Shown one piece after another: positions 485 to 17,047 of a DNA stretch of 64,000 nucleotides (position 1 is the first letter of the stretch; every line of letters begins with the position of its first letter). Source of the DNA: Phycisphaeraceae bacterium (lineage in GTDB: Bacteria; Planctomycetota; Phycisphaerae; Phycisphaerales; SM1A02). Both the position numbers and the translations under genes were made by a program. The stretch spans positions 2,051,205-2,115,204 of the forward strand of contig CP054178.1 of assembly GCA_015709595.1 (NCBI GenBank), read 5' to 3'. The notes below the pieces were generated by a model. That model ran no database searches. It worked only from the letters and a program-made list of their open reading frames with translations, and was not told where the DNA came from.

Positions 485-1873
485 TCAGATCAGATACAGC
501 AGCGGGAACAGGAAGATCCAGATGAGATCGACCAGGTGCCAGTACAGCCCGCCCAGATCGACCTGGGTGAAGCGATGCGGACCGTATCGACCGCGGACGG
601 CGCCGATGAGCAGCCAGCCGATCACCAGCATGCCCACGAGCACGTGAATGCCGTGCAGCCCGGTGGTGAGGAAGTAGATGTTGAAGTAGAGGTGGGCGTT
701 GGCGGGGCGGGTTGGATCCTCGGTGTGATGCGCCACGGGCTGGATGAGCGGCTGCACGCGCTGGGCGCGGAATCGCGGCGAGATGCCGCGCGGCCCCTGG
801 GCGGCGTTGGGAATAGATGATTTCGGGATATAAAACTCCGTTGACTGCGCCGAAGAAGAGGCGGCGCCGGAAGCCGTCGCCTCGCCCGCCGTCGCCCCGG
901 CGGGCGGCGCGGATGGCTCCGCTTCCGCTCCCTCCGCAGCGCCTTCGGTTGGCGCATCGGGCTCGGACGGCGCGACCGGTTCGGGCGCCTTGAACGTTCG
1001 GATGTACGCCACGATGTGTCGAAGATCGTCGTCCTTGAGCGTCGGGTTGCCGCCCCTGGGAGGCATCTGTAGCCCCGTGGTGTTGAGTTTGTCGAAGGGC
1101 ATGCGGCCGCCCTTGATGAACTTGACAAGCTCCTCGTCGCTCTGGGATGCAATGAACTCGCTGCCGCGAATGTCCTTGCCCTGGCCCACGATGCCCTCGC
1201 CCGCCACGCCGTGGCAGGAGCGGCAGGTGGCCATCCACAGCGATTCGCCGGTCTTGGCGCTGAACTGGGGCGGCGGCGGAGGCGGCGGCGCGGCCTGATC
1301 GCCTTCCACCTCGTTCGCGGACGGGGCGGGCGGCTCCACGTGCGGCGGCGCGTAGAACCCGCGACCCCACACGAGCCCGTCGTGAATCTTGTGCGAGTAT
1401 TCCACGTACTTGATGCCCATGAACACGCCGCCCCCCAGCAGCGTCGCCGCCAGGCACCACACCAGCGGCCTGCGCTGTCCCCGCTGAGCAAAGGAGACGG
1501 CCATGGCCATCGTCATGCTGCTGACGATCAGCACCACCGTGTTGGTGGCGCCGAGCCACGTGTCGAGGAACTGGCTGCCGTAGGCGAAGACCTCGGGATG
1601 GTTCCCCCGAAGCACGGCGTAGTAGCAGAACAAGCCGCCGAACAGCAGCAGTTCCGTGGCGAGGAAAATCCACATCCCCAGCTTGGCGCTGGAGAACTGC
1701 TGGCCCAGCGACTCGAAGTGGTGCGCCAGTCCGGGGGCGTGCGCGTCGTCTACCGTTGCGGCGGCCGCGCCGTCATACTGGTGTCGGTGAACGGGGCAGC
1801 GCGAGAGCGAATCCGCGGGCCGATGCTCCGGCTCGGGCGGAGTCGCGGATGAGGGAGTCATGAACGCGGTCAT
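485..1873 (-). CDS. COX3/NorE-like membrane protein with inserted cytochrome c domain
   Basis: A 462-residue protein whose ends are haem-copper oxidase subunit III-like: hydrophobic segments near 66-86, 104-126 and 137-156, then 397-423 and 441-462, with typical FLATELLLFGG and TGLHGIHVLVGM sequences. Between the third and fourth segments lies a soluble class I cytochrome c domain (about 205-295) with haem motif CRSCH at 217-221 and a likely distal Met at 270 (LQMPPRGG). It is flanked by Pro- and Ala-rich linkers (177-203 and 295-345). The ATG at 1873 is preceded by an AGGAG box. The gene follows nosL by 22 bp in the same direction, so it is probably co-transcribed. No oxidase subunit I or II is nearby. 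An electron-transfer role towards NosZ is inference. Confidence 0.85.
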   Translation of the reverse strand: MTAFMTPSSATPPEPEHRPADSLSRCPVHRHQYDGAAAATVDDAHAPGLAHHFESLGQQFSSAKLGMWIFLATELLLFGGLFCYYAVLRGNHPEVFAYGSQFLDTWLGATNTVVLIVSSMTMAMAVSFAQRGQRRPLVWCLAATLLGGGVFMGIKYVEYSHKIHDGLVWGRGFYAPPHVEPPAPSANEVEGDQAAPPPPPPPQFSAKTGESLWMATCRSCHGVAGEGIVGQGKDIRGSEFIASQSDEELVKFIKGGRMPFDKLNTTGLQMPPRGGNPTLKDDDLRHIVAYIRTFKAPEPVAPSEPDAPTEGAAEGAEAEPSAPPAGATAGEATASGAASSSAQSTEFYIPKSSIPNAAQGPRGISPRFRAQRVQPLIQPVAHHTEDPTRPANAHLYFNIYFLTTGLHGIHVLVGMLVIGWLLIGAVRGRYGPHRFTQVDLGGLYWHLVDLIWIFLFPLLYLI

Positions 1874-1895
1874 GGCGATCTCCTGAAGCGGCGAG

Positions 1896-2444
1896 TCATT
1901 CGTGGTCGCTGGCGGACGGCGGCTCCTTCCGCAGCCGCGCGACCAGCGTGGCGAAGTCCATGTGAACGCCCGGGGTGACCAGCGCGGCCTGCTCCGCGGC
2001 GGCGCGGTCGGCGTAGGCGGCGGCTCCGAAGGCCATGGGCGTGATGATGTCGGGCGAGAACAGATACGCAGCGCGCGTGGCGTCGAGCCACTGGCCGCTG
2101 GAGGCGTCCGTGACCCAGCGGGCCAGCATCAGGGACTCATCCTGCCACTGCCCGACGATCAGGCAGCCGATGTCGTCGAACAGCAGCATCTCGCGTCGTC
2201 CGCCCTGCTCGATCAGCATTGCCGCCGCGAAGCGCGAGTCGCTCACGATCATGCCGCACTCGGCGCAGATGTCCTGCCCGTAGTGGATGGTCGGCGGTTC
2301 AATCGGCGTCTCGCGCTGGCACCCGGCGGTCACCGCGCCCGCGAGTGCGACCACGCACACACCGATCACCGAGAACTGAGAACCGAGAACCGACAACCAC
2401 CCCCCGTCGGCCGACAGCCGACCGCCGAAAGCCCGATTCCTCAT
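1896..2444 (-). CDS. nosL: NosL copper-binding lipoprotein
   Basis: 182 residues. NosL is a membrane-anchored Cu(I) chaperone that helps assemble the CuZ centre of nitrous oxide reductase. A hydrophobic segment ends in a lipobox (TAGC, Cys42), and the copper motif CAECGM (Cys60, Cys63, Met65) is intact, followed by the typical FDDIGC strand. The ATG at 2444 overlaps the nosY stop (ATGA), which supports translational coupling. A GTG codon about 25 codons downstream (VIGVCVVALAG) would also leave a usable signal peptide. The codons between the two starts contain repeat-like DNA (2368-2398), so the N-terminus may have been extended by an insertion. Confidence 0.9.
   Translation of the reverse strand: MRNRAFGGRLSADGGWLSVLGSQFSVIGVCVVALAGAVTAGCQRETPIEPPTIHYGQDICAECGMIVSDSRFAAAMLIEQGGRREMLLFDDIGCLIVGQWQDESLMLARWVTDASSGQWLDATRAAYLFSPDIITPMAFGAAAYADRAAAEQAALVTPGVHMDFATLVARLRKEPPSASDHE
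2368..2398. repeat. GAGAACC-type tandem repeat inside nosL signal region
   Basis: The stretch reads as short imperfect repeats of GAGAACTGAGAACCGAGAAC. It is followed by more repeat-like text rich in GCCGAC and GCCGAAAGCC up to 2433. Similar text occurs at 18601-18700 and 39391-39520. Here it lies inside the 5' end of nosL, where it encodes part of the residues before the lipobox. Confidence 0.6.
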
Positions 2445-3319
2445 GATCCACCTCGTCGAATGAAGATGGCCGCACTGAGCCCCAACGGCGCGATGATCCA
2501 CGCCGCCAGCACCCCGCCCAGCAGCAGCGAGAGTTGGTTGCCCCATGCCTGCATGGCGTAGAGCCCGGCGGGTCCGAGTACGTCCAGCGAGGCGTGAACG
2601 CTCTCGAGCGACGCCATCTTGAACACCTGCATGGGGTTGAGCAGCGACAGCCGGAAGAGGTCGGTGACGTGCAGCTTGAAGATCATCGCGCTGCCCATCA
2701 GCCCCAGGTCGCCGAGGAAGACGAACGTCAGCCACAGGAAGATGGCCGCCCCGTTGGCGGACGAGGCCCGCCGCGCGATGGTTGACACCAGCATGCCCAC
2801 GCTGAGCATGGCCAGCCCGAGGGCGTAGGCCAGTCCGACCAGCCGGGCGAAGTTGAGCGCGTCGTCCGTGCCGCTCTTCCAGGCGATGACCGCCGCGCTG
2901 GCCCCGAAGCCCAGCGCGATGGAGGCGAACAGCGCCGCCGCCAGCCCCAGGTACTTGCCCAGCAGCACTTCCAGCCGGCTCACGGGCTGGGCCAGCAGGT
3001 AGGCGAGCGACCCGCGCTCGCGCTCCGCGGCGAGCGACGCGGCCCCCGCGGTGAGCGCCATCAGCGGCACGATCAGGATCACGAGGTTGATCAGGCCCGC
3101 GGCGGTGCGGCCGAAGCCCGCGAAGCCCGTCGCCCCCGTGCCGACGAGCGACAGGAACGACAACCCGAGCGAGAGCGCCACGAAGGCGATCGTGTACAGG
3201 ATGAACCAGCGGTTGCGCAGGGCGTCGCCGACCTCCTTGCGGGCGATGGTGAACACCGCGCGCGGAGCGACGGGCCAGTCGGACGCCCCGGCTCGAATCG
3301 TGGCGGCGAAGTCAGACAT
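2441..3319 (-). CDS. nosY: NosY ABC transporter permease
   Basis: 292 residues, the membrane subunit of the NosDFY ABC system needed for CuZ maturation. Six hydrophobic segments are visible, with the ABC-2 type pattern ISRKEVGDALRNRWF-like at the N-terminus (here IARKEVGDALRNRWF) and AAERERGSLAYLLAQPVSR after the third segment. The ATG at 3319 has an AAGGAG box. The longer open frame upstream has no support, because it runs inside nosF. It overlaps nosF by 8 bp and nosL by 4 bp. Confidence 0.93.
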   Translation of the reverse strand: MSDFAATIRAGASDWPVAPRAVFTIARKEVGDALRNRWFILYTIAFVALSLGLSFLSLVGTGATGFAGFGRTAAGLINLVILIVPLMALTAGAASLAAERERGSLAYLLAQPVSRLEVLLGKYLGLAAALFASIALGFGASAAVIAWKSGTDDALNFARLVGLAYALGLAMLSVGMLVSTIARRASSANGAAIFLWLTFVFLGDLGLMGSAMIFKLHVTDLFRLSLLNPMQVFKMASLESVHASLDVLGPAGLYAMQAWGNQLSLLLGGVLAAWIIAPLGLSAAIFIRRGGS

Positions 3320-4235
3320 GGCGGTCTCCTTGAGCGTGATGGGATGCGGGCGCCGGCGTCGAGGCGGCTGAAGGCAGACGCCCGTTGCCGAGCAGTTCGA
3401 AGTCCTCAACGCGGATGCGTGTTTCCGCCAGGGCGTGGATCGGTCCCGCCTTCGCCCGCGGGTTGACGACGACATGCACGCCGCAGCCGTTGCGCGAGGC
3501 CTCGAAGCCGCGGCGGCTGAGCGCGGCGGCGGCTTCCTCGATCTGCCCGTCGGCGACGAAGACCTTCATCAGCAGGTTCTCGGCGATTTCCGCGGCGGCG
3601 TCGGGCTGCCCCTGTCGCACCACCCGGCCTCGCTCCAGCATCAGCACGCGATCGGCCAAGGCCCGCACTTCGGCGTAGTGGTGCGAGGTGAAGAGGATGG
3701 TCTTGCCCCGGTCCTTGAGCGACTTGAGCAGCGACATGAAGCCGCTCTGGGCCTCGGCGTCGAGGTTGGACGTCAGTTCATCGAGAATCAGCGCCGGCGG
3801 GTCGGCCAGCAGTGCCGCGGCGAGCGCGAGCCGCTGTTTCATGCCGCCGGAAAGCTCGCGCACGCGCTTGCGGGCGTGGCCTTCCAGTCCGACCTCCCTG
3901 AGAACCACGCCGATGCGCTCACGAGGCGTGCGCTTGAGTGAGGCGAGGAATCCCAAGGCGTCGGCGGCGCGAAGGTCGTCGTGGAAGGCCAGTTCCTGCG
4001 GCACGTAGCCGATCATGCGCCGGGCCGCCTTGCCGCGCCGCCGCACGTCGAAGCCGGCGACGGAGATCGAGCCGCGAAAGCGAATCAGCCCGAGCACGCA
4101 GCGGATGATGGTGGTCTTGCCCGCGCCGTTGGGGCCCCAGAGCGCCACCGCTTCTCCCTGCGCGATGGTGAGCGAGAGATCATCCACCGCGGTGAAGCGA
4201 CCGAATCGCTTGGTCAGGTGGTCGAGTCGGATCAT
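3312..4235 (-). CDS. nosF: NosF ABC transporter ATP-binding protein
   Basis: 307 residues, the cytoplasmic ATPase of NosDFY. Walker A is GPNGAGKTT near residues 34-42, the signature is LSGGMKQRLALAAAL, and Walker B is PALILDELTSNLD. The last is unusual only in having Leu-Thr-Ser after the catalytic Glu where many ABC proteins have P-T/F-x. The C-terminal 90 residues form the extra domain typical of NosF. The ATG at 4235 is preceded by GGAAGGAG and overlaps the nosD stop (ATGA). Confidence 0.95.
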   Translation of the reverse strand: MIRLDHLTKRFGRFTAVDDLSLTIAQGEAVALWGPNGAGKTTIIRCVLGLIRFRGSISVAGFDVRRRGKAARRMIGYVPQELAFHDDLRAADALGFLASLKRTPRERIGVVLREVGLEGHARKRVRELSGGMKQRLALAAALLADPPALILDELTSNLDAEAQSGFMSLLKSLKDRGKTILFTSHHYAEVRALADRVLMLERGRVVRQGQPDAAAEIAENLLMKVFVADGQIEEAAAALSRRGFEASRNGCGVHVVVNPRAKAGPIHALAETRIRVEDFELLGNGRLPSAASTPAPASHHAQGDRHV

Positions 4236-5592
4236 GACGCCGCTCCTTCCAGGTTGCGGGTGCGAGTCAGCAGCAGCACGCATGCGGCGCCGCCCAGCAG
4301 GACGAGTGCGACGACGGCCATGGCGCCCGGCGCTGCCTTCCGTGCGGCAAGTCCCTCAAGCCGGACTGGCTGCATGAGCGGCGCGGCATCAGCGAATCGC
4401 GGGCGGGGCCGCACCGCCGGGAACGCCCGGGCCGCCAGGTCAATCGCCTGCTGCGCCGGACTATGCAGAAACAACCGCATCATGGGCTCGCGCTCGATCA
4501 GGTTGTCGAAGAGCGAGGCGGCCTCGTAGGGCAGGTCGCCCAAGCCGTCGCCATTGAGGTCGAACCCGGCGTAATCACTCCAGTAGTTGCCCCTGCCGTT
4601 GATGGTGAAATCGTTGCCGCCGAAGTCGCCCGTGCCGATCACCGCCACCTGCTGCAGGTTCTCGATGAAGGCGTTGTCGGTGAATCGGTTGCGCTTGACG
4701 TTGGGCAGGAAAGCCAGACCAATGTCGTTGTATGCGAATACGTTGCGAGCGAAGTCGTCATACACGCCGATGGCGTGCGGTGAGTTGTCCAGGTACGCGC
4801 CCACGCGGTTGGCGACGAAGGCGTTCTCCTCCGCCACGATGCGCTCCATGTCCTTCAGACCCAGCCCGTAGCCGCTGGGTCCGCGGTTGCGGGAGAAGAC
4901 GTTGCGCCTGAGCACCAGGTCGCGGCTGTACATGAGGAACGCGCCGACGGAGTTGTTCTCCAGCACGTTCTCCTCCAGCACGTTGTTGTCGGTGTACATG
5001 AAGTGCATGCCGTAGCGGCAGTCGGAGACCGTGTTGCGCCGCAGCGTCACATCGCTGGAAAACCACACCACCACGTCTCGTCCGCGCGTGACCAGGTTGC
5101 CCTCGATGAGCGTGCCCGCGCACTGCCACAGCCGGATGCCGTCGCCCCGGCGGGCCACGTCGATGTCCTTGCCCCCGATCACGCAATCGCGGATGACGCT
5201 GTCGGGCGCGTTCTTGAGCAGCACGCCGAACAGCACGTCGTCGAAGATGACGTCCTGAATCACCAGGCGCTCGCCGCTGCCGAAGACGCCGGCGTGCTCG
5301 CGATCGAGCGTTTCGCCCGTGCCCCGCAGCGTGAAGCCGCGGATTGTCACGTCCGCCGCCGCGATGCGGAGCACGTGGCCCTTGCCCTCGGCGTCCAGCA
5401 CGGGACGATCCTGGCCGATCAGCGTGAGCGGCTTGGTGATGCTGAACATCCCCCGGTGGACGCCCGGCGGCACGGAGATCACGTCGCCCGGAGCGGCGGC
5501 GTCGATCGCCTGCTGCAGGTCAAACGCCTGACCCGGAGCGTCCCCGCCGGACAGCATCGCGGCGGCGACGGCGAGTTGGAGCATCAATCGCT

Positions 5593-5596
<4 letters not shown>
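4232..5596 (-). CDS. nosD: NosD periplasmic copper-site maturation protein
   Basis: 454 residues. NosD is a right-handed beta-helix protein that receives copper from NosL and works with NosFY in the periplasm. A short Sec signal (VKRLMLQLAVAAAML) is followed by beta-helix repeats with NTVSD, NVLEEN and NVFSRN-type ladders. The NYWSDYAGFDLNGDGLGD motif is diagnostic of the family. The GTG at 5596 overlaps the upstream stop as GTGA; an in-frame ATG lies four codons later. A C-terminal hydrophobic segment (about 428-446, AVVALVLLGGAACVLLL) ending in RTRN suggests anchoring to the membrane. Confidence 0.93.
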
Positions 5597-6321
<725 letters not shown>

Positions 6322-6396
6322 GATGGACTCCCGCAAAGGGTGATGGTGGAAAGAGGTGGCGGGCGGTGTTTCACGCCCGCCGCCCGAAGGAGAAGG

Positions 6397-8430
6397 TCAC
6401 TGCGGCTTCACGAGGAAGTAGCCCAGCATCTCCAGGTGCAGGGCGGAGCAGAACTCGGAGCAGTAGAAGGGGAAGGCGCCGGCCTGGGTGGCCTCGAACT
6501 CGATGGTCACGGTCTCGCCCGGCTCCAGACTGGCGGTGATGTTGTAGCCGGGGATGGCGAAGCCGTGAGTCGCGTCCTTGGTGCGTTCCACGTTGGTGAT
6601 GCGCCAGATGACATGGTCGCCCAGGTTCACCTCCACGCGTTCGGGCTTGAAGTGGCTGCGCACTGCGGTCATGTAGATCTCCACGGTCGAGCCGTTGCGC
6701 ACGATGCGCTCCTTGCCCGGCATCGGCGCGTTGGGATCAACTGACTGGGTGTGCGGGTTCCAGCCGATCTCGGGATAGACCTCCCAGGTCTTGAGCTTGT
6801 CCGCGCGAATCATCTGGGAGTAGTGCGGTTCGCCCAGGCCCACCGGCGCGTCGTAGATGACCTGCATCTTGTCGCCGGTCTGGGAGATGTCGATCAGCTG
6901 GAAGTTCTGCGGGAGCAGCGGTCCGGTGGGGAAGAACCGGTCGATCGACCACTTGTTGAACGCGACGAGGTACTTGCCGTCCGGACTGACGGTGTCGCCC
7001 TCGGCCGCGCCGAGGTGGCCGACGTTGTACTGCACGGGCACCTTGGCCACGAGGGACCAGGGCTTGTCGGGGTTCTTGCCCGCGTAGGGGCCGCCCAGCG
7101 TCCAGCGGGCGATGGCGGAATCAAGGAACAGCGAGGTATAGGCGTAACCCTTGTCATCGAACTGGGTGTGGAGCGGTCCAAGCCCCAGCTCCACCTGCGC
7201 CTCGACCACGTCCTCCAGTTTCAGGATCGGCACGCCGTACACGTCGCGGTCGAACTTGCCCGCGGCGATGGCCTTCTGGATCTTGTCGAAGGAGTAGACG
7301 GTGACGTGGGGATCGAGCTTGCCGGAGACGACGATGTACTCGCCTCCGGGGGTGATGTCCACGCCGTGCGGACTCTTGAGCTCGGGGGCGAAGAACAGGA
7401 TGCCCTCGTCAATGCAGGTCTGCAGGGAGAGAACGTTGAACCCCTTGACCTTCGTCGCCTTGCCGGCCTTGAAGACCTGCTCGGCCTTCTTCCAGTTGAT
7501 GATGTGCAGGTAGTCGGTCTCGTTCTGGCTGGCGCCGGCCTCGAAGTAGTTCTTGTCGTTCACCGTGGCGCTGCCGGTGGCCAACTCGGTGTTGATGGAG
7601 TTGCCGAAGATCCAGCCGTCGCTGACGCCCTTGCCGGCGTCAAAGAGGTCCTGCCAGTAGGGGGGCAGTTCCAGGGCGAAGGACTGATCCACGTCGATGC
7701 GGCCCTTGGCGCGGTCGAACTTCCACATGGTCACGTTGCCGCGGTAGGACTTCTGGTAGTCCTCGAGCGGCGCGTAGTCCCATCCGAGCGGCGTGCCGTA
7801 CTGCCCGCCCTCGATGATGTATTCGGTGTTGGGCGTGACGAACGTGCCGCCGTGGTCGTTGATGGCGATGGGGTTCTTGACGATCTGCTTGGTCTCGAAG
7901 TCGCGCAGGTCGATCACGGCGACGCGGGCGTTGGCCTTGTCGCCGATGAAGAGCCACTGGCCGTCGAACTCGCCGTTGGTCTCGCTGATCGAGGGATGAT
8001 GGGTGTCGGCCCAGCGGATCTCATTGTTGCGGGCGTTGCCCTGGTCGAGGATCTCGTTGCCCACGCCGTAGCCCCAGCCCTGCCAGGGCTCGGGGGTGAA
8101 GACGGCGATGACCCGCAGCAGGCGCATCGACGGTACGCCGTACACCAGCACCTGCCCGCTGTGCCCGCCCGAGGCGAAGAGCAGGTAGTCGTCGATTCGG
8201 CCGCTGGGCATGTAGGTCTTGAGGGCGGCGGTGATGTCGTCGGGCGTCAGGTCGCGGGCCTTGGCGATGGCGGCGGCGTCGCCGCTGAGCCCGCCCGCGC
8301 TGGCGGCGCCTCCGGATGTCTTTCGGGCGGTGTCCACCTGTCGGATGTCCGGGCTCGACCCGGACTCTCCGCCGCCGCAGCCGGTCAGCACCAGACCGCC
8401 TGCGGCCAGGATTGCGAGATGCTTCTTCAT
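6397..8430 (-). CDS. nosZ: Nitrous oxide reductase NosZ, clade II type
   Basis: 677 residues. Reduces N2O to N2 in the periplasm using a tetranuclear CuZ site in a beta-propeller and a CuA site in a C-terminal cupredoxin domain. The N-terminus MKKHLAILAAGGLVLTGC is a Sec lipoprotein signal with no twin arginine, as expected of clade II. CuZ ligand regions are visible: WADTHHPSISETNGEFDG, LKSPHGVDITPGGEY, GPLHTQFDDKGYAYTS and NVGHLGAAEGD. The CuA loop CSEFCSALHLEM is complete near 657-668. The ATG at 8430 has a GGAG box. The longer open frame upstream runs into the regulatory spacer and is not supported. Confidence 0.97.
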   Translation of the reverse strand: MKKHLAILAAGGLVLTGCGGGESGSSPDIRQVDTARKTSGGAASAGGLSGDAAAIAKARDLTPDDITAALKTYMPSGRIDDYLLFASGGHSGQVLVYGVPSMRLLRVIAVFTPEPWQGWGYGVGNEILDQGNARNNEIRWADTHHPSISETNGEFDGQWLFIGDKANARVAVIDLRDFETKQIVKNPIAINDHGGTFVTPNTEYIIEGGQYGTPLGWDYAPLEDYQKSYRGNVTMWKFDRAKGRIDVDQSFALELPPYWQDLFDAGKGVSDGWIFGNSINTELATGSATVNDKNYFEAGASQNETDYLHIINWKKAEQVFKAGKATKVKGFNVLSLQTCIDEGILFFAPELKSPHGVDITPGGEYIVVSGKLDPHVTVYSFDKIQKAIAAGKFDRDVYGVPILKLEDVVEAQVELGLGPLHTQFDDKGYAYTSLFLDSAIARWTLGGPYAGKNPDKPWSLVAKVPVQYNVGHLGAAEGDTVSPDGKYLVAFNKWSIDRFFPTGPLLPQNFQLIDISQTGDKMQVIYDAPVGLGEPHYSQMIRADKLKTWEVYPEIGWNPHTQSVDPNAPMPGKERIVRNGSTVEIYMTAVRSHFKPERVEVNLGDHVIWRITNVERTKDATHGFAIPGYNITASLEPGETVTIEFEATQAGAFPFYCSEFCSALHLEMLGYFLVKPQ

Positions 8431-8801
8431 GGCGTTTCTCCACGGGGTGAGAGGGCTGAAAGCCGGCGACGCCCCGCCCGGGCCGGTGCGAAAGGCCCCT
8501 GCGGCCTTGGCAGGGGAAGTGGTGGGGGCTGGTCGGGATGTCGCCGGTTGATGATGCATGACGGAAGATTCATCGACCAAATCTTGATAAATGGATAGAC
8601 ATATCCACTATACGACGATAGGATAGGAGGCGTCAACCGTTGACGCCGGGAATTCGTGAAGGAAATCACAAAGCAGGGCCAAAACCGCGATTCCAGGGCT
8701 GAAACCGGGGAATCTTCCCCGATGGCCCATCCGACCGTCGTCCGAACCCTGTCCGACCCGCACCACTCCGTCGACCTCGCACGCCCCTTGAGGACCACGC
8801 C
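8431..8801. promoter_or_regulatory. Divergent nosZ / tpl regulatory spacer with inverted repeats
   Basis: A 371-bp gap between divergent starts. It holds three perfect dyads: TGGATA-gaca-TATCCA at 8592-8607, GGCGTCAAC-c-GTTGACGCC at 8629-8647 and GGGGAA-tc-TTCCCC at 8707-8720. An imperfect 20-bp direct repeat starts with CAGGGC at 8674 and again at 8694. The AT-richest part of the spacer is 8581-8625, about 160 bp before nosZ. No coding frame with a credible start is seen. The first two dyads look like operators. Their cognate regulator is unknown, but the Rrf2-type gene downstream is the nearest candidate. Confidence 0.6.
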
Positions 8802-10256
8802 ATGATCCGACGCGACAGACGTTCCTGGGCCGAACCCTACCGCATCAAGATGGTGGAGCCGCTGCGGCTCACGACCCGCCGCCACCGCGAGGCGGCCATC
8901 GCCGAGGCGGGGTTCAACACCTTTCTCCTTCGCAGCGAGGACGTCTACATCGACCTGCTCACCGATTCAGGCACCAACGCCATGAGCGACCGGCAGTGGT
9001 CGGCCCTGATGCTGGGCGACGAGGCCTACGCCGGCTCCGCCAGCTACTACCGGCTGGAGGCGGTCGTCCGCGAGCACTACGGCTTCAAGCACCTGATCCC
9101 CACCCATCAGGGTCGCGGCGCCGAACACCTGCTCAGCCAGCTCTGCATCAGGCGGGGGGACGTGGTGCCCGGCAACATGTACTTCACCACCACCAAGTTC
9201 CACCAGGAATACGCGGGCGGTCGATTCGTGGACGTGAGCATCGACGAGGCGCACGACCCCGCGTCGCTCCACCCCTTCAAGGGCAACGTGGACCTGGCGA
9301 AACTGGAGCAGGTCATCCGTTCGGCCGGTCCGGAGCGCGTGTCGTATCTGTCGCTGGAGCTCAACGTCAACATGGCGGGGGGGCAACCGTGCAGCATGGA
9401 GAACATCCGCGCTTCGTGCGACCTGTGCCATCGTTACGGCATCCCCGTCTATCTCGACGCGACTCGGGCCATCGAGAACTGCTACTTCATCCAGTTGCGC
9501 GAGCCGGGGTACGAGGGACGCGACCTGAAGGACATCCTCCGTGAAATGTGCTCCTACGCCGACGGCTGCACCGTCTCGGGCAAGAAGGACTGCCTGGTCA
9601 ACATCGGCGGCTTCCTGGCGGTCAACGACGATGACCTGGCCGAGCGGGCCCGCAACCTGTGCGTGGCCTTCGAGGGGCTGCATACGTACGGCGGTCTGGC
9701 CGGGCGCGACATGGAAGCCATGGCCGTGGGCATCCGCGAGTCGGTGGAGTTCGACCACATGCGCGCCCGCGTGGGGCAGGTGGAGTATCTCGGCGAACTG
9801 CTGCGCGGCGAGGGAGTGCCCATCGTGCTGCCGATCGGAGGGCATGGCGTGTTCATCGACGCGGCCCGCTTCCTGCCTCACATCCCCCGCGAGCAGTTTC
9901 CGGCCCAGGCGCTCTCCGCCGCGCTGTACGTGGAATCGGGCGTGCGTTCGATGGAGCGTGGCGCGGTGTCGGCGGGCCGCGACCCGGACACGGGGGAGAA
10001 CATCTACCCCTCGCTCGAGCTGGTGCGTCTGACGCTGCCTCGGCGCGTCTACACCCAGGCCCACATGGACGTGGTGGCCGAGTCGGTGGCGGCGCTGTTC
10101 GGAGCGCGGGAGAACGTGGTGGGGCTGCGAATCACGCACGAGCCGAAGCACCTGCGATTCTTCCAGGCACGGTTCGAGCCGGTGCGCGGCTCGAAGGTGC
10201 TGATCGGCGACGCCCAAACCGTCCCTGCCGCCCCCGAGCCGGAGTGGGCCATCTGA
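8802..10256 (+). CDS. tpl: Tyrosine phenol-lyase (beta-tyrosinase)
   Basis: 484 residues of the PLP-dependent beta-eliminating lyase family. It is expected to split L-tyrosine into phenol, pyruvate and ammonia in the cytoplasm. The Schiff-base motif SGKKD places the PLP lysine at 262. The segment YVESGVRSMERG (Met384, Arg386) matches tyrosine phenol-lyase; tryptophanases carry a different AGVRAVEIG-type sequence here. FTTTKFHQE (about 128-136) and LRFFQARF near the C-terminus also match tyrosine phenol-lyase. The ATG at 8802 has a GAGGA box 8 bp upstream. It is about 30 residues longer than the well-studied enzymes, mostly at the C-terminus. Rrf2 follows 57 bp downstream in the same direction. 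Confidence 0.9.
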   Translation: MIRRDRRSWAEPYRIKMVEPLRLTTRRHREAAIAEAGFNTFLLRSEDVYIDLLTDSGTNAMSDRQWSALMLGDEAYAGSASYYRLEAVVREHYGFKHLIPTHQGRGAEHLLSQLCIRRGDVVPGNMYFTTTKFHQEYAGGRFVDVSIDEAHDPASLHPFKGNVDLAKLEQVIRSAGPERVSYLSLELNVNMAGGQPCSMENIRASCDLCHRYGIPVYLDATRAIENCYFIQLREPGYEGRDLKDILREMCSYADGCTVSGKKDCLVNIGGFLAVNDDDLAERARNLCVAFEGLHTYGGLAGRDMEAMAVGIRESVEFDHMRARVGQVEYLGELLRGEGVPIVLPIGGHGVFIDAARFLPHIPREQFPAQALSAALYVESGVRSMERGAVSAGRDPDTGENIYPSLELVRLTLPRRVYTQAHMDVVAESVAALFGARENVVGLRITHEPKHLRFFQARFEPVRGSKVLIGDAQTVPAAPEPEWAI

Positions 10257-10313: not shown

Positions 10314-10790
10314 GTGATCACGCAGACCGCCGAGTACGCCCTGCGGGCCGCCGCCGACCTGGCGACGCATCATGGACGACCCCGGACCTCGCAGCAGATG
10401 GCCCGTGCCACGCACGTACCACCCGATTACCTCTCCAAGGTGATGAAGGAACTGGTGCGCGCGGGGATCGTGCGCTCCCAGCGCGGCGTCAACGGCGGCT
10501 TCTCGCTCCTGCGCGATCCGGATGACCTGCCGGTCTACGACGTCATCAACGCCGTCAACCCCATTCAGCGCATCCGTGAGTGTCCGCTGGGGCTGCGCGC
10601 CCACGCCAGGGGCAATCTCTGCCCGCTGCACCGACTGCTGGATGACGCGATGGAGAAGATCGAGGCGGCCTTCAAGGGCGTCACGCTGGGACAACTGGCC
10701 CGCCAGGCCAAGCAGCATGGGAAGAACGGCGATCCGCTCAGCCGACCGCTGTCGCTGACGGTGGATCGGGCCATGCGCGCGGCGTCCTGA
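10314..10790 (+). CDS. Rrf2-family transcriptional regulator
   Basis: 158 residues. The N-terminal winged helix is typical (ITQTAEYALRAAADLA, then PPDYLSKVMKELVRAGIVRSQRGVNGGFSL). Family members such as IscR and NsrR sense Fe-S status or NO through three cysteines. Here the sensor loop has only Cys90 and Cys103, with His97 between them and His106 in a C-x-x-H arrangement like IscR Cys104/His107. It may therefore bind a cluster with mixed ligands, or none. The GTG at 10314 is chosen because it follows AGAGGTG and begins exactly at the conserved first residue. Control of nosZ or tpl is inference from position. Confidence 0.88.
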   Translation: MITQTAEYALRAAADLATHHGRPRTSQQMARATHVPPDYLSKVMKELVRAGIVRSQRGVNGGFSLLRDPDDLPVYDVINAVNPIQRIRECPLGLRAHARGNLCPLHRLLDDAMEKIEAAFKGVTLGQLARQAKQHGKNGDPLSRPLSLTVDRAMRAAS

Positions 10791-10829
10791 TGGGCGTCAT
10801 CAGCGTTCGATGCGACGCTCGATCAGCGA

Positions 10830-12134
10830 TCAGTTGGCCCCACCGGCGGTATTCCCGCCGGCGTTTCCGCCGAACGCGGTCAACTGTCCCGACAGAATCG
10901 GGATCGCCACCTTCAGGGCTACGGTGTAGACCATCAGCCCGAAGGCCCAGATGCCCGCAGTGACCTTCCATTCGGTCAAGCTCGGCGTGTACTCCACCAC
11001 TTCGTGGAGCGTGCTGGGGATGAACCCCGGCACGATCAGACCCATGCCCTTCTCGATCCAGCAGCCCATGAAGGCCAGCGCCGCCGCGATGATGACCACG
11101 CGGGCGCTGCGCATGGCGGCGGGGTGCAGGAACAGCACCGCGGCGACCACGTTCATCACGATCGCGGACCAGATCCACGGCACCAGCGCCGACTTGCCGT
11201 GCAGCCCGAAGAACAGATACACCGCTGAACTGGTGTGGGCTCCGCCCGTGTAGAACTCGGTGAAGATCTCCGAGATCAGCAGCAACAGGTTGATGAGAAT
11301 GGTGACGCGGACAATGTTGACCAGCGTCTGGATGGGCCGGTCATGCACGTCCATGCCGACGATCTTCTTGAGCACCAGCAGGGTGACCATGATGAAGGCC
11401 GGACCGGAGACGAAGGCCGAAGCGAGGAAGCGGGGGGCCAGCACCGCGCTGTTCCAGAAAGGCCGCCCGCCCAGCCCGCAGTAGAGGAACGCGGTGACGG
11501 TATGGATCGAGATCGCCCACACGATCGAGATCATCACGAAGGGCACGTACCACCTGGGGTTCGGCTGCCGCCCGAGGAACCGCATGTAGAGCATGTACCC
11601 GCAGATGTGCAGGTTGAGCAGCAGGTAGCCGTTGAGGACGATCACGTCCCAGGTGAGCATGGAAATGGGAAAGTTGAACCGCCCAATCACCGGGAAGAGG
11701 TGCCAGAAGCGATCGGGACGACCCAGGTCCACGGTGACGAACATCAGGCACATCACGATGGCGGCGATCGCCAGCAGTTCGCCGATGATCACGATGTCGT
11801 GCATGCGGCGGTCGTGGTACAGGTAGGCGGGAATGACCATCATCACGCCGCCAGCCGCCAGCCCCACGATGAAGGTGAAGTTGGCGATGTACAGCCCCCA
11901 CGAGACGTGATCGGTCATGTTGGTGACGATCATCCCCTGCGACACCTGGCTGGCCCAGGCGTGAGCGCCCACCAGGGCGATGGCGGTGAGCAGCGTCATC
12001 CACGCATAGAAGAGAGGCGGTCCGTCCGTCGCCAGCACCAGCATCCGGTACAGGAAGCGAGGGTAGTTCGTCCAGTGACGCGGACGCTCCTCCAGCGCGG
12101 GGGACGGCGTCGATCTGGTGTCGGCGGCGCTCAT
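10830..12134 (-). CDS. NrfD/PsrC/DsrP-type quinol-interacting membrane protein
   Basis: 434 residues with about ten membrane segments. The family is the membrane anchor of several periplasmic redox complexes (Nrf, Psr, Dsr, Hme) and exchanges electrons with the quinone pool. The N-terminal WASQVSQGMIVTNMTDHVSWG and the segment LFVTVDLGRPDRFWHL-like (here MFVTVDLGRPDRFWHLF) fit the family's conserved second and fourth helices. The ATG at 12134 overlaps the stop of the cupin gene (ATGA) and has an AAGGTG box. It is the last gene of a four-gene minus-strand run starting at 14105. It converges on the Rrf2 gene with a 39-bp spacer. Confidence 0.9.
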   Translation of the reverse strand: MSAADTRSTPSPALEERPRHWTNYPRFLYRMLVLATDGPPLFYAWMTLLTAIALVGAHAWASQVSQGMIVTNMTDHVSWGLYIANFTFIVGLAAGGVMMVIPAYLYHDRRMHDIVIIGELLAIAAIVMCLMFVTVDLGRPDRFWHLFPVIGRFNFPISMLTWDVIVLNGYLLLNLHICGYMLYMRFLGRQPNPRWYVPFVMISIVWAISIHTVTAFLYCGLGGRPFWNSAVLAPRFLASAFVSGPAFIMVTLLVLKKIVGMDVHDRPIQTLVNIVRVTILINLLLLISEIFTEFYTGGAHTSSAVYLFFGLHGKSALVPWIWSAIVMNVVAAVLFLHPAAMRSARVVIIAAALAFMGCWIEKGMGLIVPGFIPSTLHEVVEYTPSLTEWKVTAGIWAFGLMVYTVALKVAIPILSGQLTAFGGNAGGNTAGGAN

Positions 12135-12472
12135 GCGGCGTCACCTTTCACCAACGTCAGCAGGAAGATCGTCGGCTCCACGGCCTTCAGCGCGTGCAGT
12201 GCGTTGGGCGGCATGAGCAGCCAGCTTCCAGGGCGCATGTCGTGCGACGCGCCATCGACGGTGAACGTCAGCCGTCCCGTGATGATCTGCACCGTAGCCA
12301 CGAAGGGCGCCTTGTGGTCGCTCATCTCCTGCTCGGCGTCCATCGAGAAGAGCACCTGACGCAACGAGGGCGTGTTCACCAGCGGCTTGCTCACCGTCGC
12401 GCCCGGAACCACCGGACAGAGGTCGGGCAGCAAGGCGGCGTGGACGGCGTGCGTGTCGAACGTGGGCTTCAT
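12131..12472 (-). CDS. Small single-domain cupin protein
   Basis: 113 residues forming one cupin beta-barrel. The second motif is visible as RPGSWLLMPPNALHALKA, and the first as SDHKAPFVATVQIITGRL. The metal ligands are incomplete: His in the SDHKAP segment and His in NALHAL remain, but the usual H-x-H pair is not present. No signal peptide is seen, so it should be cytoplasmic. It lies between the Fe-S protein and the NrfD-type gene with coupling distances, which suggests an assembly or sensing role for that complex. The function is not known. Confidence 0.8.
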   Translation of the reverse strand: MKPTFDTHAVHAALLPDLCPVVPGATVSKPLVNTPSLRQVLFSMDAEQEMSDHKAPFVATVQIITGRLTFTVDGASHDMRPGSWLLMPPNALHALKAVEPTIFLLTLVKGDAA

Positions 12473-12487
12473 GGCGTCACGTATGGT

Positions 12488-13489
12488 TCAGCGGTCGAAG
12501 AAGTAGAAGAACGACGGCAGGGTGCCCAGTTCCTCCTTGAGCACGTACACCCGCTTGTGCTCGAGGATCCAGTGCAGTTCGGAGTTCGGGTCGTTGATGT
12601 CGCCGAACACCCTGGCCCCGGTGGGGCAGGCCTCCAGGCAGGCGGGCGCGCGGCCGACGCGGGTCCGGTGCAGGCAGTAGTGGCACTTCTCCATCACGCC
12701 CTTGGGGCGCAGACGATTGGAGAGATACCCCTGGTTGGGGTTGATCTCGTCGGGCGGGATGACCGGCTCGGTCCAGTTGAATCGCCGGGCGTGATAGGGG
12801 CACGCCGCCTCGCAGTAGCGGCAGCCGATGCACCAGTCGTAGTCCACCACGACGATGCCGTCATCCTCCTTCCACGTGGCCTCCACGGGGCACACATGAA
12901 CGCAGGGCGGGTTGTCGCACTGCTGACACTGCACCGGCAGGTAGTACTTGCCCGGCTGGGGCACCTCGTGGGTGTACGTGGTGTTGCCCTTCTCCATGTC
13001 CAGCGAGCCCTTCTGCATCTCGATGACGCGGATGTAGGACTGCTTGCTGGCCCGGTCGTGGTTGTTCTCGCGGTGGCACGCCTCGACGCAGCGCCCGTTG
13101 CCGTTGCACTTACTCAGGTTGATGGCGTAGACGAACTTCGTTCCAGGGATGGGCGGCGGGTCGCTGATTGACACCCGGACGCCGGTTCGCTCCAGCGTCC
13201 GTCGCTCGATCCGGGCGAAGACGGCCTGCTTGTCCTCCGGCGTGAGCTCCTTGTAGTGGCGCTGCAGGAACTCCTCGAGCGTGAGTTCCGACGCCACGTC
13301 CAGCAGGGGCGACAGCGCGTGGGCGAACGCACCCAGCCCGAGCATGGCGCCCGCGCCCTTGATGACCGTTCGACGGGACACCTGCCCCAGTACGGGCAAT
13401 GACACCGTCTGGGTGGTGCCGGCGGCGGCGCGACGCTCCGCCTCGCGCGCCCGATCGTCCGCATCACGGCGAATCGGCGTCTCACTCAT
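12488..13489 (-). CDS. Tat-exported four-cluster ferredoxin subunit (DsrO/HybA type)
   Basis: 333 residues. The twin-arginine signal (SRRTVIKGAGAMLGLGAFA) lies after a 37-residue N-terminal extension, so the protein is predicted to be periplasmic. Cysteine groups for four [4Fe-4S] clusters are visible: CNGNGRCVEAC, CQQCDNPPCVHVC, CIGCRYCEAAC and CHYC followed by CLEAC. This is the usual electron-wire subunit between a periplasmic cytochrome or catalytic subunit and an NrfD-type anchor. The ATG at 13489 overlaps the upstream gene's stop by 8 bp. The cupin gene follows after 15 bp. Confidence 0.92.
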   Translation of the reverse strand: MSETPIRRDADDRAREAERRAAAGTTQTVSLPVLGQVSRRTVIKGAGAMLGLGAFAHALSPLLDVASELTLEEFLQRHYKELTPEDKQAVFARIERRTLERTGVRVSISDPPPIPGTKFVYAINLSKCNGNGRCVEACHRENNHDRASKQSYIRVIEMQKGSLDMEKGNTTYTHEVPQPGKYYLPVQCQQCDNPPCVHVCPVEATWKEDDGIVVVDYDWCIGCRYCEAACPYHARRFNWTEPVIPPDEINPNQGYLSNRLRPKGVMEKCHYCLHRTRVGRAPACLEACPTGARVFGDINDPNSELHWILEHKRVYVLKEELGTLPSFFYFFDR

Positions 13490-14105
13490 GCCCGACGCCC
13501 TCCCCGGTGAGGAACCGATCGCGCGGCTTGAAGGTGGGAATCATCCTCGGGAACTGCGGCGCGTGTGGGTCATGGCAGTCGATGCAGTTGTTGCGCGTCC
13601 GCGGCCCTTTTCTGCGATCCCAGTAGCCGGTCATGCCGCCGTGAATGCCGTGTTCATAGTCCCGCGCCTGCGGTCCGTGGCACTGGGCGCAGAGCGTCAT
13701 GACGTCGGGGTATTCGAGCCGACGCCCGTCCGCCAGCCGCAGGGCGTCGTAGTTGCCTGGGTCGTGGCATGAAAGACAGGTGATCGATCCGTGCCGGAAG
13801 GTGAGCCCCTGGTGAAAGAGGTCAAGGTCCGCCCCCGAGGCGTTGTCGAAGTTCGGCTCGCGCGAGGCGTGGCAGGTGGAGCAGGCGATGGTGATCTCGG
13901 CGCCGCTGGCGTCGAACACGCCCGTGCCCACGCGCGGCGGGCCCGCAGGGCGGCGGATGAAGATCGGATGCAGTTCAACGTCCTGCCGCGAGGCGGCCTG
14001 TTGATCGGCGCGATCCGTCATCGCGCTGTCGGACGTCTCTCGCGAGCACCCGGCCGCGAGCGTGCCGATCAGCATGATCGCCAGGATGGCGTCTCGTGAG
14101 AGCAT
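13482..14105 (-). CDS. Periplasmic tetrahaem c-type cytochrome lipoprotein
   Basis: 207 residues. MLSRDAILAIMLIGTLAAGC gives a lipoprotein signal. Four CxxCH haem sites are visible: CSTCH, CLSCH, CAQCH and CIDCH. The C-terminal DCHDPHAPQFPRM followed by PTFKPRDRF resembles doubled-CxxCH cytochromes found beside NrfD-type complexes. The ATG at 14105 is preferred because it starts a clean signal peptide; the frame extends 33 codons further upstream into the divergent promoter region. It is the first gene of the Fe-S/cupin/NrfD run, and the nap operon starts divergently 165 bp away. Confidence 0.9.
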   Translation of the reverse strand: MLSRDAILAIMLIGTLAAGCSRETSDSAMTDRADQQAASRQDVELHPIFIRRPAGPPRVGTGVFDASGAEITIACSTCHASREPNFDNASGADLDLFHQGLTFRHGSITCLSCHDPGNYDALRLADGRRLEYPDVMTLCAQCHGPQARDYEHGIHGGMTGYWDRRKGPRTRNNCIDCHDPHAPQFPRMIPTFKPRDRFLTGEGVGHE

Positions 14106-14205
14106 CGTGGGCGTGGACCATCGAGTTCGGAAGTTCGCTCCAGTGTACCGAATGGCGGAGCATATGGGGAGCGCCCGCCGTTTCGATCCGGGAAACTTTC
14201 GCATC

Positions 14206-14233
14206 TTGCACGGTGTGTGTGAGACCGTACACT
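14206..14233 (+). promoter_or_regulatory. Candidate sigma-70-type promoter of nap operon
   Basis: TTGCAC (14206-14211) and TACACT (14228-14233) are separated by 16 bp and lie about 40 bp before the napD start. They are the best hexamer pair in the 165-bp divergent spacer. The spacer also serves the tetrahaem cytochrome gene on the other strand, for which no clear promoter is seen. Confidence 0.4.
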
Positions 14234-14270
14234 GGGTTCAGGCGCGACGCAGCGCGCTCAAGGGTGCTAC

Positions 14271-14603
14271 ATGCCTGTCAGCGGACTGGTTGTGACGCTT
14301 TCTTCCGACGCCGCGCTCGCGGACCAGGCGCGGTCGTGGCTGCGCCGTCGTCCGGAGGTGGAGCTGGGGGAGCGACAGGGGCTGCGGCTGCCTCTCGTCA
14401 CCGAGACGTCATCCGCCCTCGCCGCTCACACTCTGCACGACGCCATCCGTGCTCTGCCGGGCGTGGTCGGGGTGGATGTGACGTTTGTCGCGTATGACGA
14501 TGAGATGAAGTCGCCGGGGGACCGGGCGCATGCGCCGCCTGTCCCACGGTCAGTTGCCTGCGTTCCGCCCGGCTCTTCGAACGCCACGGAGGTTGAGCCA
14601 TGA
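14271..14603 (+). CDS. napD: NapD, signal-binding chaperone for NapA
   Basis: 110 residues with a ferredoxin-like fold. NapD binds the twin-arginine signal of NapA in the cytoplasm and prevents export before the molybdenum cofactor is inserted. The core runs from [10 protein letters not shown] to [15 protein letters not shown], the usual NapD end strand. About 30 residues beyond it are poor in structure and may be dispensable. The ATG at 14271 follows AAGGGTG. The stop overlaps the napA start (ATGA). Confidence 0.88.
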
Positions 14604-17047
14604 CCGCCACGCTGATTCCCCAGGATCGTCGCGCCTTCATGAAGCACGCCGCCATGGCCGCCGCCAGCGCGGCCGCCGCGGGGGCGAGCGCGAAGGCGGG
14701 GGGCGCCTTCGCCCTTCCGCTCTTTGACGGCGGGCAGGCGTCGGGCGGCGTGACGTGGGACAAGGCCCCCTGCCGCTTCTGCGGCACGGGCTGTCACGTG
14801 CAGGTGGGCGTGCAGGACGGCAAGGTCGTCGCGATTGCGGGCGACATCAACGCCGAGGTCAACAAGGGGCTGCTCTGCGTCAAGGGCTATCACGTGGGGC
14901 TGGCGATGTACGGTCCTGACCGGCTGACCCATCCCATGCTGCGCCGCAACGGCGTGCTGGAACGGATCACCTGGGATGAGGCCATCGACATCATCGCCCG
15001 GCGCATCATGGCCAACCCCGCCGCCTTCGGCATGTACGGCAGCGGGCAGTGGACCATCGGCGAGGGCTGCGCCGGCAATAAGTTCATGAAGGCCGGGCTG
15101 GGCAGCAACCACCTGGACGGCAATCCCCGCTTGTGCATGTCGTCGGCGGTGACGGGGTTCCTTTCCACCTACGGAGTGGATGAACCGGCCGGCTGCTACG
15201 ACGACCTGGACCATTGCGACGTGCTCATCATGTGGGGCAACAACCCCGCCGAGATGCACCCGGTTCTGTTCTCGCGCGTGGTCGATCGCCGCAGCAAGGG
15301 TGAAGAGGTCACCCTCATCGACATCGGCACGCGGCGCACGCGCACCACCGACCACTGCCAGCACTATCTGGAGTTCAAGCCCAACTCCGACCTGGCCGTC
15401 GCCAACGGCATCGCGCATCTGCTGATCCAGCGCGGGGCGTACGACAAGCAGTTCGTCGAAAAGCACTGCAACTTCCGGCAGATGAACCCCGAGAAGCCGG
15501 ACGACATGTACGGCATGCCGATGACCTTCGACGAATACGCCGCCGCGGTGGCGTCGTATACACCCGAGCGCGTGGAGGCGATTTCCGGCGTGCCGGCGGA
15601 GAAGATCGTCCTGCTCGCCGATCTCTTCAGCCGGCGCGATATCCGCATCACCTCGCTCTGGTGCATGGGGATGAACCAGCACACGCGGGGCACGGCCATC
15701 AACTGCCTGGTGCATGGAATCCACCTGCTTTCAGGGCACTTCGGGCGGCCCGGTGATGCGCCAACCTCCCTCACCGGTCAACCCAGCGCGTGCGGCACGG
15801 TGCGCGAGGTGGGCACGCTCTGCCACCTGCTGCCGGGCGGGCGCGTGATCGCCAACGCCGAGCATCGGGCGCAGGCCGAGCAGTTGTGGAACGTGCCCGC
15901 CGGTCGCATCAACCCCAGGCCCGGCTATCACACGGTGCTGCTCTTCGAGAAATTCTGCACGCCGACGGACCAGGGCGGCGACATTCAGACGCTCTGGGTG
16001 CAGGTGACCAACCCCGGGCAGACGCTGCCCAACCTGCACAAACTCTTCCGCGCCAAGAAGAATCTCGAGGACAAGTTCCTCATCGTCTCCGATGTCTACC
16101 CCACCGCGACCACCGAACTGGCCGACCTCGTCCTGCCCAGCGCCATGTGGGTGGAGAAGAACGGGATGTACGGCAACAGCGAGCGGCGGACGCAGCAGTG
16201 GTTCCGCATGGTCATGCCGCCCGGCGAGGCGCGGGACGACTGCTGGCAGACCATCGCCGTGGCCCACCGGCTGCTGGAGCTCGGCCACGAGGGCATGAAG
16301 GGCTCGGATGGCGAGTTCATCTTCACGGTGCGCGATTCCTCCGGTGCGACTGTCCCGATCTGGGACTGGAATCACTACTACGACGTCAATGTCGATGAGC
16401 ACCTCTTCGAGGAGTACCGGCCGTTCACGCGGCTCAAGCACAAGGATCTGGCGCCGTACCGGGAGTACGTCAAGGCCCGCGGCCTGCGATGGCCGGTCGT
16501 CGAGCAGCCGGATGGCTCATGGCGCGAGACGCGCTTCCGCTTCTCGGGGTTCGACGACCCGTACGTGGAGAAAGGGCGCGAGTTCCAGTTCTACCACTCC
16601 GTCACCAAGGACGACCGGGCGCTCATCTGGTTCCGTCCGTACGAAGACCCGCCCGAGATGCCGGACGAGGCGTACCCCTTCTGGCTCTGCACCGGGCGCG
16701 TGCTGGAGCACTGGCACACCGGCTCGATGACGCGGCGGATTCCGCAGCTCTCCCGCGCCATGCCCCGCGCCTACGTGGAGGTTCACCCCGAGGACGCCAA
16801 GCGGCTCAACCTGCGCAACGGCGACCTGGTGGTGGTCGAATCCCGCCGCGGCTCGATGACGCTTCCCGCGTGGATGAACGGGCGAGGTCGCCCGCCCGAG
16901 GGGACGGTCTTCGTGCCATTCTTCGATGAAACCAAGCTCATCAATGAGGTCACGCTGGACGCCCACGACCCCTTCTCCAAGCAGCCGGACTACAAGAAGT
17001 GCGCGGTGCGAATCCGCCGGGCCGACCTCCGGGCGGCGAAGGGGTGA
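14600..17047 (+). CDS. napA: Periplasmic nitrate reductase catalytic subunit NapA
   Basis: 815 residues. Reduces nitrate to nitrite at a Mo-bis-MGD centre. The Tat signal [18 protein letters not shown] is followed by the [4Fe-4S] motif CRFCGTGC (Cys58, 61, 65) with the fourth ligand Cys93 in LLCVKGYH. The molybdenum-binding cysteine is Cys179 in [12 protein letters not shown]. Further molybdopterin oxidoreductase signatures are [13 protein letters not shown] and [21 protein letters not shown]. The ATG at 14600 has GGAGGTT upstream and overlaps napD. Length and motifs match NapA and not assimilatory Nas, and napB follows within 4 bp. Confidence 0.96.

Follow-up and report, generated by a model that had tools for sequence, protein, structure and literature searches.

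A cytochrome c domain inserted in a COX3-like membrane protein, a candidate electron donor to clade II NosZ in a planctomycete

Clade II nitrous oxide reductase (NosZ) is an important biological sink of nitrous oxide (N2O), and to our knowledge little has been learned of how electrons reach it except in Wolinella. The electron carriers predicted for Wolinella NosZ are NosC1 and NosC2 (PMC11102522), and clade II clusters also encode NosB-NosC2 fusions (PMC11102522, PMC11409646). Here we describe a gene that closes a clade II nos operon in a 64,000-nucleotide stretch (the window) of the genome of a Phycisphaeraceae bacterium (contig CP054178.1, positions 2,051,205 to 2,115,204). Its product (COX3-cyt c) shares with NosC1 and NosC2 a class I c-type haem domain encoded in a nos operon, but carries this domain inside a five-helix bundle of the oxidase subunit III (COX3) type and not as a protein of its own.

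NorE and NirO, COX3-like proteins of the nor and nir clusters, are presumably subunit III relatives that stand outside the oxidase operon in denitrification; we know of no haem domain in them. The nearest parallel in kind appears to be the tri-haem CcoP of Neisseria gonorrhoeae, an oxidase subunit with a captured cytochrome domain and an Ala/Ser/Pro-rich linker that serves a denitrification enzyme (PMC2924362). CcoP, however, is a cbb3 subunit with a C-terminal addition, whereas the protein studied here is a subunit III with the addition inside the bundle and its gene in a nos operon. In the supercomplexes of alternative complex III (ACIII) with an oxidase, subunit III (or I/III) lies at the ACIII interface and a cytochrome c domain serves as the bridge: the contacts in Flavobacterium johnsoniae are made via the five-helix subunit III (PMC8361435), and in Rhodothermus marinus subunit I/III was fitted beside ActC in a 20 Å map (PMC5928083). 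The cytochrome domain there belongs to ActA or to subunit II, however, and the electrons go to O2. The ACIII cluster of Methylacidiphilum IT6 encloses the nos cluster (PMC11102522). In the accessible text of the open-licence literature searched, we found neither a COX3 that contains a cytochrome c internally nor a link of such a protein to nosZ.

The fusion gene is an open reading frame (ORF) that covers exactly positions 485–1873 of the minus strand, starts with ATG and is separated from the nosL stop codon by 22 bases. Its 462-residue product matches the COX3 family PF00510 in two stretches (51.5 bits against a cut-off of 23.8) and the Cytochrome_CBB3 and Cytochrom_C families at residues 206–293, both above the Pfam cut-offs. 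An AlphaFold2 model (59 aligned rows; mean pLDDT 72.4 and pTM 0.57, with low values in the linkers) runs from three membrane helices through a helical haem domain to two final membrane helices. In structural comparisons, residues 43–462 of the model resemble the COX3 chains of many oxidases (Z 16–21, about 180 residues aligned) and adopt the COX3 five-helix fold, and residues 202–296 resemble cytochrome c-554 (Z 11.1) and the cytochrome domain of three-domain Cu nitrite reductases (Z of about 10). We take the five helices to be helices III–VII of bovine COX3, which puts the insert in the V–VI loop of that protein. One protein thus contains a five-helix COX3 bundle and, in the loop between its helices 3 and 4, a complete class I cytochrome c domain. 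The first-pass annotation, made from the letters of the sequence, had claimed just this: a single frame joining a subunit III core to a cytochrome c with CRSCH and a Met ligand, inserted between helices three and four and bounded by Pro/Ala linkers. The ORF, the Pfam matches, the model and the linker sequences bear it out, and an assembly or frame artefact, or chance, can be ruled out, as the same architecture is repeated in 20 more genes from 18 other genomes. The features of the gene are as follows.

485..1873, minus strand: COX3-cytochrome c fusion gene, 462 residues, last gene of the nos operon (ORF, Pfam, model and structural comparison)
1880..1884, minus strand: AGGAG resembling a ribosome-binding site, 6 bases ahead of the ATG (sequence)
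1601..1708, minus strand: membrane helix 1, residues 56–91, which holds Glu74 of the COX3 core (model; residue conservation)
1481..1561, minus strand: membrane helix 2, residues 105–131 (model)
1382..1474, minus strand: membrane helix 3, residues 134–164 (model)
1268..1381, minus strand: Pro/Ala-rich linker 1, residues 165–202 (sequence and model)
986..1267, minus strand: inserted class I cytochrome c domain, NosC-type, residues 203–296 (Pfam, model, structure match, domain tree, genome-wide search)
1211..1225, minus strand: haem attachment motif CRSCH, residues 217–221 (sequence; C, C and H invariant in 20/20)
1064..1066, minus strand: Met270, the expected second axial haem ligand (sequence; invariant in 20/20)
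698..985, minus strand: Ala/Pro-rich linker 2, residues 297–392, with an IPKSSIP-like part that resembles a loop of the plain CoxC of the same genome (sequence and model)
596..697, minus strand: membrane helix 4, residues 393–426 (model)
491..568, minus strand: membrane helix 5, residues 436–461, with the WHLVDLIW core (model; conservation)

Analysis of the inserted domain points to the cytochromes of nos operons as its closest relatives. A tree was built from 112 cytochrome domains over 104 columns (its inner forks are weak, and the cytochrome of locus L204, split into two ORFs, was left out); a branch with 97% support separates 20 fused and 62 nos domains from 30 others, namely 10 CoxB, 10 ActE and 10 Di600 domains, the last from dihaem proteins of nar loci. 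Because the nos cytochromes of the tree had been picked by their similarity to the insert, the 97-residue insert was also searched against 36 whole genomes. Matches outside the window's own gene were found in 33, and the best match was a nosZ-adjacent cytochrome in 32 of the 33; in genome G489 another gene ties with the nosZ-adjacent cytochrome. There was no second match in the genome of the window at E 1e-6, and none in G404 or G418. The insert is called NosC-type here because these best matches lie beside nosZ; judged by its sequence, it is of the type of these genomes' own nos cytochromes, the stand-alone members of which fall in the same domain clade. An origin of the haem domain from the cytochrome of CoxB (caa3) or of ActE is not supported by the domain tree. 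By architecture the protein is not a NosC, since its cytochrome sits inside a COX3 bundle, although it would work like one; conversely, its sequence and fold make it a COX3, and its gene context does not.

The distribution of the fusion suggests that it takes the place of a stand-alone nos cytochrome. We read the nos loci, as far as the contigs extend, of all 43 genomes with clade II nosZ among 397 genomes of the class (probably Phycisphaerae). Eight of them have COX3-cyt c at the end of the nos cluster, with no further class I cytochrome c found there; one of these eight clusters (that of G656) is on a contig that ends 0.4 kb above nosZ. The leftover CxxCH hits in the eight are a lyase (twice), an out-of-frame ORF inside nosY and, in G691, a five-haem protein on the other strand. 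Among the remaining 35 genomes, 33 have a stand-alone nos cytochrome. It precedes nosZ in 31, with two CxxCH motifs in 26, three in 3 and one in 2; in G503 and G454 a monohaem protein (158 and 157 residues), lipoprotein-like by eye, occupies the slot after nosL. Several of these sister cytochromes have an N-terminal membrane helix or a lipoprotein-like signal. The either/or pattern gives a Fisher p of 3e-7 (1e-6 without G656) if relatedness is ignored, and both kinds of cytochrome occur inside each of the families f1, f103 and f113. The trihaem nos cytochromes that precede nosZ in G489 and G639 (L197:2947-4284 and L216) have second and third domains that are closely alike.

Charge distribution gives the side of the membrane on which the insert should lie. 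In the 20 aligned fused copies (the copy of G762 was found after the alignments were made), Lys plus Arg exceed Asp plus Glu in the loop between helices 2 and 3 in all 20 and in the loop between helices 4 and 5 in 18, with two ties, whereas in the loop between helices 1 and 2 acids equal or outnumber bases in 18. As the positive charges sit on loops 2–3 and 4–5, the haem domain in loop 3–4 should be periplasmic by the positive-inside rule, and the attachment of haem c takes place in the periplasm. A cytoplasmic position, which the first-pass annotation had named as fatal to its proposal, is thus not what the loop charges indicate. The two Cys, the His and the Met that would ligate the haem are invariant in the same 20 copies, and Pfam, structure and alignment agree on a class I c-type domain with CxxCH and Met.

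To see how widespread the architecture is, we relied on one scan of a collection of 84,980 species and on further searches of 392 genomes of the phylum, the 397 genomes of the class, 18 genomes with a fusion again and 14 genomes of the phylum of G750 (G-numbers denote genomes and L-numbers loci; L005, for example, belongs to G748). Among the best 80 of the 153 loci from the scan, three were fused and 77 were COX3 without CxxCH beside coxA and/or coxD. Altogether there are at least 21 fused genes in at least 19 genomes, the window's gene included. Ten of the 21 close nos clusters (the window, L005, L006, G337, G513, G448, G468, G530, G656 and G691), after nosL in seven and after nosY in the three where nosL was undetected. 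No nosZ was found on the contig of L005; in G691 nosZ and the fused gene are on different contigs, the latter together with nosY. Eight further copies adjoin NarG/NarH-type genes (L039, G236, G530, G578, G740, G651, G749 and G762), so that the first-pass question of whether the insertion occurs only beside nosZ is answered in the negative and a restriction to nosZ loci is ruled out. Five of these eight loci (L039, G236, G530, G578 and G762) encode a dihaem protein of about 600 residues of the kind seen in L039, where Pfam assigns it to EB_dh; the EB_dh protein of G740 lacks CxxCH, and G651 encodes a NarI-like dihaem protein. G530 and G749 each have one nos copy and one nar copy, and G748 carries a NarG of the nar-locus kind on a separate contig.

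For the last three genes, those of G600 (at a contig end), G677 and G433, neither nos nor nar neighbours were assigned. A Nar like that of G651 is present elsewhere in G600 and was not found in G677; in the trees and the identity table both copies were counted with the nar group for their likeness to the copy of G651, their own loci having no nar genes. The fusion of G433 lies at L154:9644-10984, and nosZ was not found in that genome. The gene of G236, split across two contig ends, was counted once and its partial form was omitted from the COX3 trees and the identity table. In none of the 21 cases did coxA or coxB accompany the fused gene in the stretches read, which were short for L005, G236 and G600. 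The fusion is thus not encoded with subunits I and II in the window, nor in the stretches read elsewhere, and the finding that the first-pass annotation had said would overturn its proposal, homologues mainly beside oxidase subunits I and II, did not materialize. A plasmid search gave 325 records with a match, none with a single place covering 80% of the query. A quick COX3 tree did not hold the fused copies together; a single origin of the insertion is not rejected (p-AU 0.088, 14 fused rows against 46), and a COX3 tree that includes the diverged copies is unreliable owing to long branches.

In the window, the order of transcription is nosZ, a 247-residue protein in the position of nosB (the position taken from PMC11409646), nosD, nosF, nosY, nosL and the fusion gene.

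6397..8580, minus strand: clade II nosZ of the Sec type; a lipoprotein-like signal, LVLTGC, follows an inner Met (TIGR04246, 851.6 bits, above cut-off)
5593..6336, minus strand: 247-residue protein in the nosB position, named by position only (no Pfam or NCBIfam match)
4232..5968, minus strand: nosD (TIGR04247)
3312..4283, minus strand: nosF (ABC_tran and position)
2441..3475, minus strand: nosY (ABC2 membrane family and position)
1896..2735, minus strand: nosL, ORF as listed, the true start probably inside (PF05573)

The next long ORF downstream of the fusion gene (2–421, alanine-racemase-N family) is on the opposite strand. There is no second cytochrome c ORF in the first 12 kb of the window, where the sole other CxxCH lies in a lyase on the opposite strand. 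The terminal position of the gene in a clade II nos operon that has no separate NosC-type cytochrome, as first described, therefore stands. The signal of the window's NosZ recurs: by an explicit lipobox rule, NosZ has a lipoprotein-like signal in all nine COX3-cyt c operons with nosZ in view (the window, L006, L116, L155, L158, L160, L161, L162 and L208). The same rule flagged three of the 35 other nosZ genomes, with L216 a false positive and L219 and L220 missed. By eye, none of the 29 operons with a multihaem NosC has such a signal, as if lipid-anchored NosZ went with one-haem or absent nos cytochromes. NosZ is probably lipid-anchored in COX3-cyt c operons, and a tethered NosZ together with a tethered one-haem donor would fit electron transfer along the membrane surface.

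The genome of the window is complete (3.84 Mb, one contig) and contains an operon of ACIII, sco, coxB (with a C-terminal CxxCH domain of its own), coxA, coxC and coxD. The plain CoxC encoded there (297 residues, without CxxCH) has the same five-helix fold as the fusion and two stretches 67% and 51% identical to its halves; it differs in its haem-free loop and in its place between coxA and coxD. Its helix 3–4 loop shares with linker 2 an IPKS/VPRS-like stretch. Among the 18 fused genomes tested, the window genome included, ACIII was found in 17 and cytochrome b in five; cytochrome b was not found in the complete genome of the window. ACIII but not bc1 is reported for Phycisphaerales in a survey of the class (PMC11266412). 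As a trait that would separate genomes with COX3-cyt c from other nosZ genomes ACIII is ruled out, being present in 52 of the 53 genomes. The ACIII-caa3 operons of G651, G600, G740 and G337 (L238, L239, L242 and L243) have no coxC between coxA and coxD; G337 and G740 have a plain coxC at another locus, and none was found in G651 or G600.

We propose, with a probability of about 0.7, that the fusion is a dedicated, membrane-held electron donor to this NosZ that is fed by ACIII, its COX3 half most likely serving in docking. Menaquinol would be oxidized by ACIII, a step established for ACIII elsewhere, and electrons would pass to the haem of the insert. This NosC-type domain would swing on its Pro/Ala tethers in the periplasm and reduce the CuA site of NosZ, itself probably lipid-anchored. 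This last step is suggested because the fusion replaces the nos cytochrome and its domain is of NosC-type ancestry. The COX3 bundle would tether the haem domain to the membrane, and for the window's group it would most likely also bring the haem to ACIII; this weaker part of the proposal is put forward because subunit III is the docking subunit in the known ACIII-oxidase supercomplex. The first-pass suggestion of a donor to NosZ gains support from the gene position, the lack of a separate nos cytochrome, the NosC-type ancestry and the either/or pattern.

Several observations weigh against this proposal. ACIII is also found in 35 of 35 other nosZ genomes and so does not single out those with COX3-cyt c. 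Eight of the 21 copies would, by their position, serve a NarG/NarH-type enzyme and not NosZ, and G433 has the fusion in a genome where no ACIII, COX1 or NarG was found. G404 and G418 have nosZ but lack both kinds of cytochrome, which means that not every nosZ genome needs a dedicated nos cytochrome. The search for stand-alone cytochromes, moreover, relied on similarity to the insert and could miss ones unlike it. By eye, NosZ looks lipoprotein-like in six of the 35 other genomes (weakly in L226 and L228). All six are in operons with a monohaem cytochrome or none. Finally, five nos-linked copies of family f113 have lost the COX3 hallmark residues, and docking on ACIII therefore cannot be general. 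Their bundles have no COX3 match by Pfam, although profile comparison assigns them to COX3 at 99.4–99.8%, with five other families below 1%. In the f113 group, the donor function seems to survive the loss of the COX3-specific surface.

Those copies bear directly on the view that the bundle is a mere membrane anchor, that any tether would do and that no docking takes place, which we consider rather unlikely. The f113 copies fit it, with an identity of 33% in the membrane part and 62% in the haem domain, in the same order in 10 of 10 pairs, and with descent from COX3 visible by profile comparison; so do the several sister nos cytochromes that use an N-terminal helix or a lipoprotein-like signal instead. 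Elsewhere the balance is reversed: mean identity is 58% in the membrane core against 53% in the haem domain for the window's nos group, and 64% against 50% for the nar group, a conservation that would be needless in a bare anchor. Three COX3 marks, Glu158, His446 and Asp449, are kept in 15 of 15 non-diverged aligned copies, and Glu74 in the 14 of 14 that include it. The first-pass claim that the subunit III fold is used only as a scaffold is thus at odds with the window's group, where conservation of the core on average equals or exceeds that of the haem domain, and holds up for the five f113 copies.

The kept hallmarks (15 of 20 copies) would also suit an alternative subunit III that binds CoxA/CoxB in the place of CoxC and turns the oxidase into a branch point to the N-oxide reductases. 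Such a role has a precedent in the third haem domain of gonococcal CcoP, which was traced to cytochrome c5 and supports nitrite reduction (PMC2924362). It retains some weight because in G651 and G600, with their ACIII-CoxB-CoxA-CoxD operons lacking coxC, the fusion is the only COX3 found; in these two genomes it may also serve as subunit III of the oxidase. We nevertheless regard it as unlikely: both assemblies are incomplete (97–98%), the window genome retains a plain CoxC in its oxidase operon, and none of the 21 fused genes has coxA or coxB in the stretch read. It is improbable that the fusion is a maturation or redox-regulatory factor, for example one that keeps the copper sites of NosZ reduced during assembly, and not a respiratory donor. 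It does sit among the maturation genes nosDFYL, and a haem-copper oxidase subunit III gene is listed with norCB of Pseudomonas aeruginosa, with no haem c mentioned, in an appendix table (PMC8756737). The molybdenum enzymes beside the nar-type copies, however, have no NosZ copper site in need of maturation, and the domain is of the NosC kind and replaces stand-alone nos cytochromes.

Some features of the neighbourhood are recorded here in their own right. Adjoining the nos operon, positions 10314–17047 of the window encode an Rrf2 regulator, an NrfD-type membrane subunit, a 4Fe-4S protein, a tetrahaem cytochrome and a molybdopterin oxidoreductase, perhaps a Nap-like nitrate reductase. A beta-eliminating lyase gene lies near nos genes in at least four genomes (8802–10256 of the window, PF01212; L116, L207 and L219). 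Single ORFs of 1005–1042 residues join NosB-like, NosD and NosF matches (L160:11995-15123, L161:12897-15914 and L162:10513-13566), and ORFs combining NosD and NosF are found in L006, L155, L158, L228 and L229.

The donor proposed here would be a concrete candidate for bacteria in which ACIII is found and cytochrome bc1 is not, and the nos and nar loci would both exemplify an oxidase subunit with a grafted haem recruited to anaerobic respiration. For annotation, a 'COX3' that closes a nos operon and has CxxCH in its loop is probably better read as an electron donor than as an oxidase subunit. More tentatively, COX3 might be a general plug for ACIII, with CoxC serving the oxygen reductase, COX3-cyt c paralogues serving NosZ or an outward-facing NarGH-type reductase, and a NosC-type haem at the exit of ACIII; adaptor and lipid-anchored NosZ would then form a chain on the membrane surface without a soluble carrier. 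If so, one quinol oxidase would serve several acceptors through exchangeable subunit III adaptors, with G530 and G749, each of which has one copy of the nos and one of the nar kind, as the best examples. A COX3 half docked on ACIII would explain how a single quinol-oxidizing complex can be switched among O2, N2O and nitrate.

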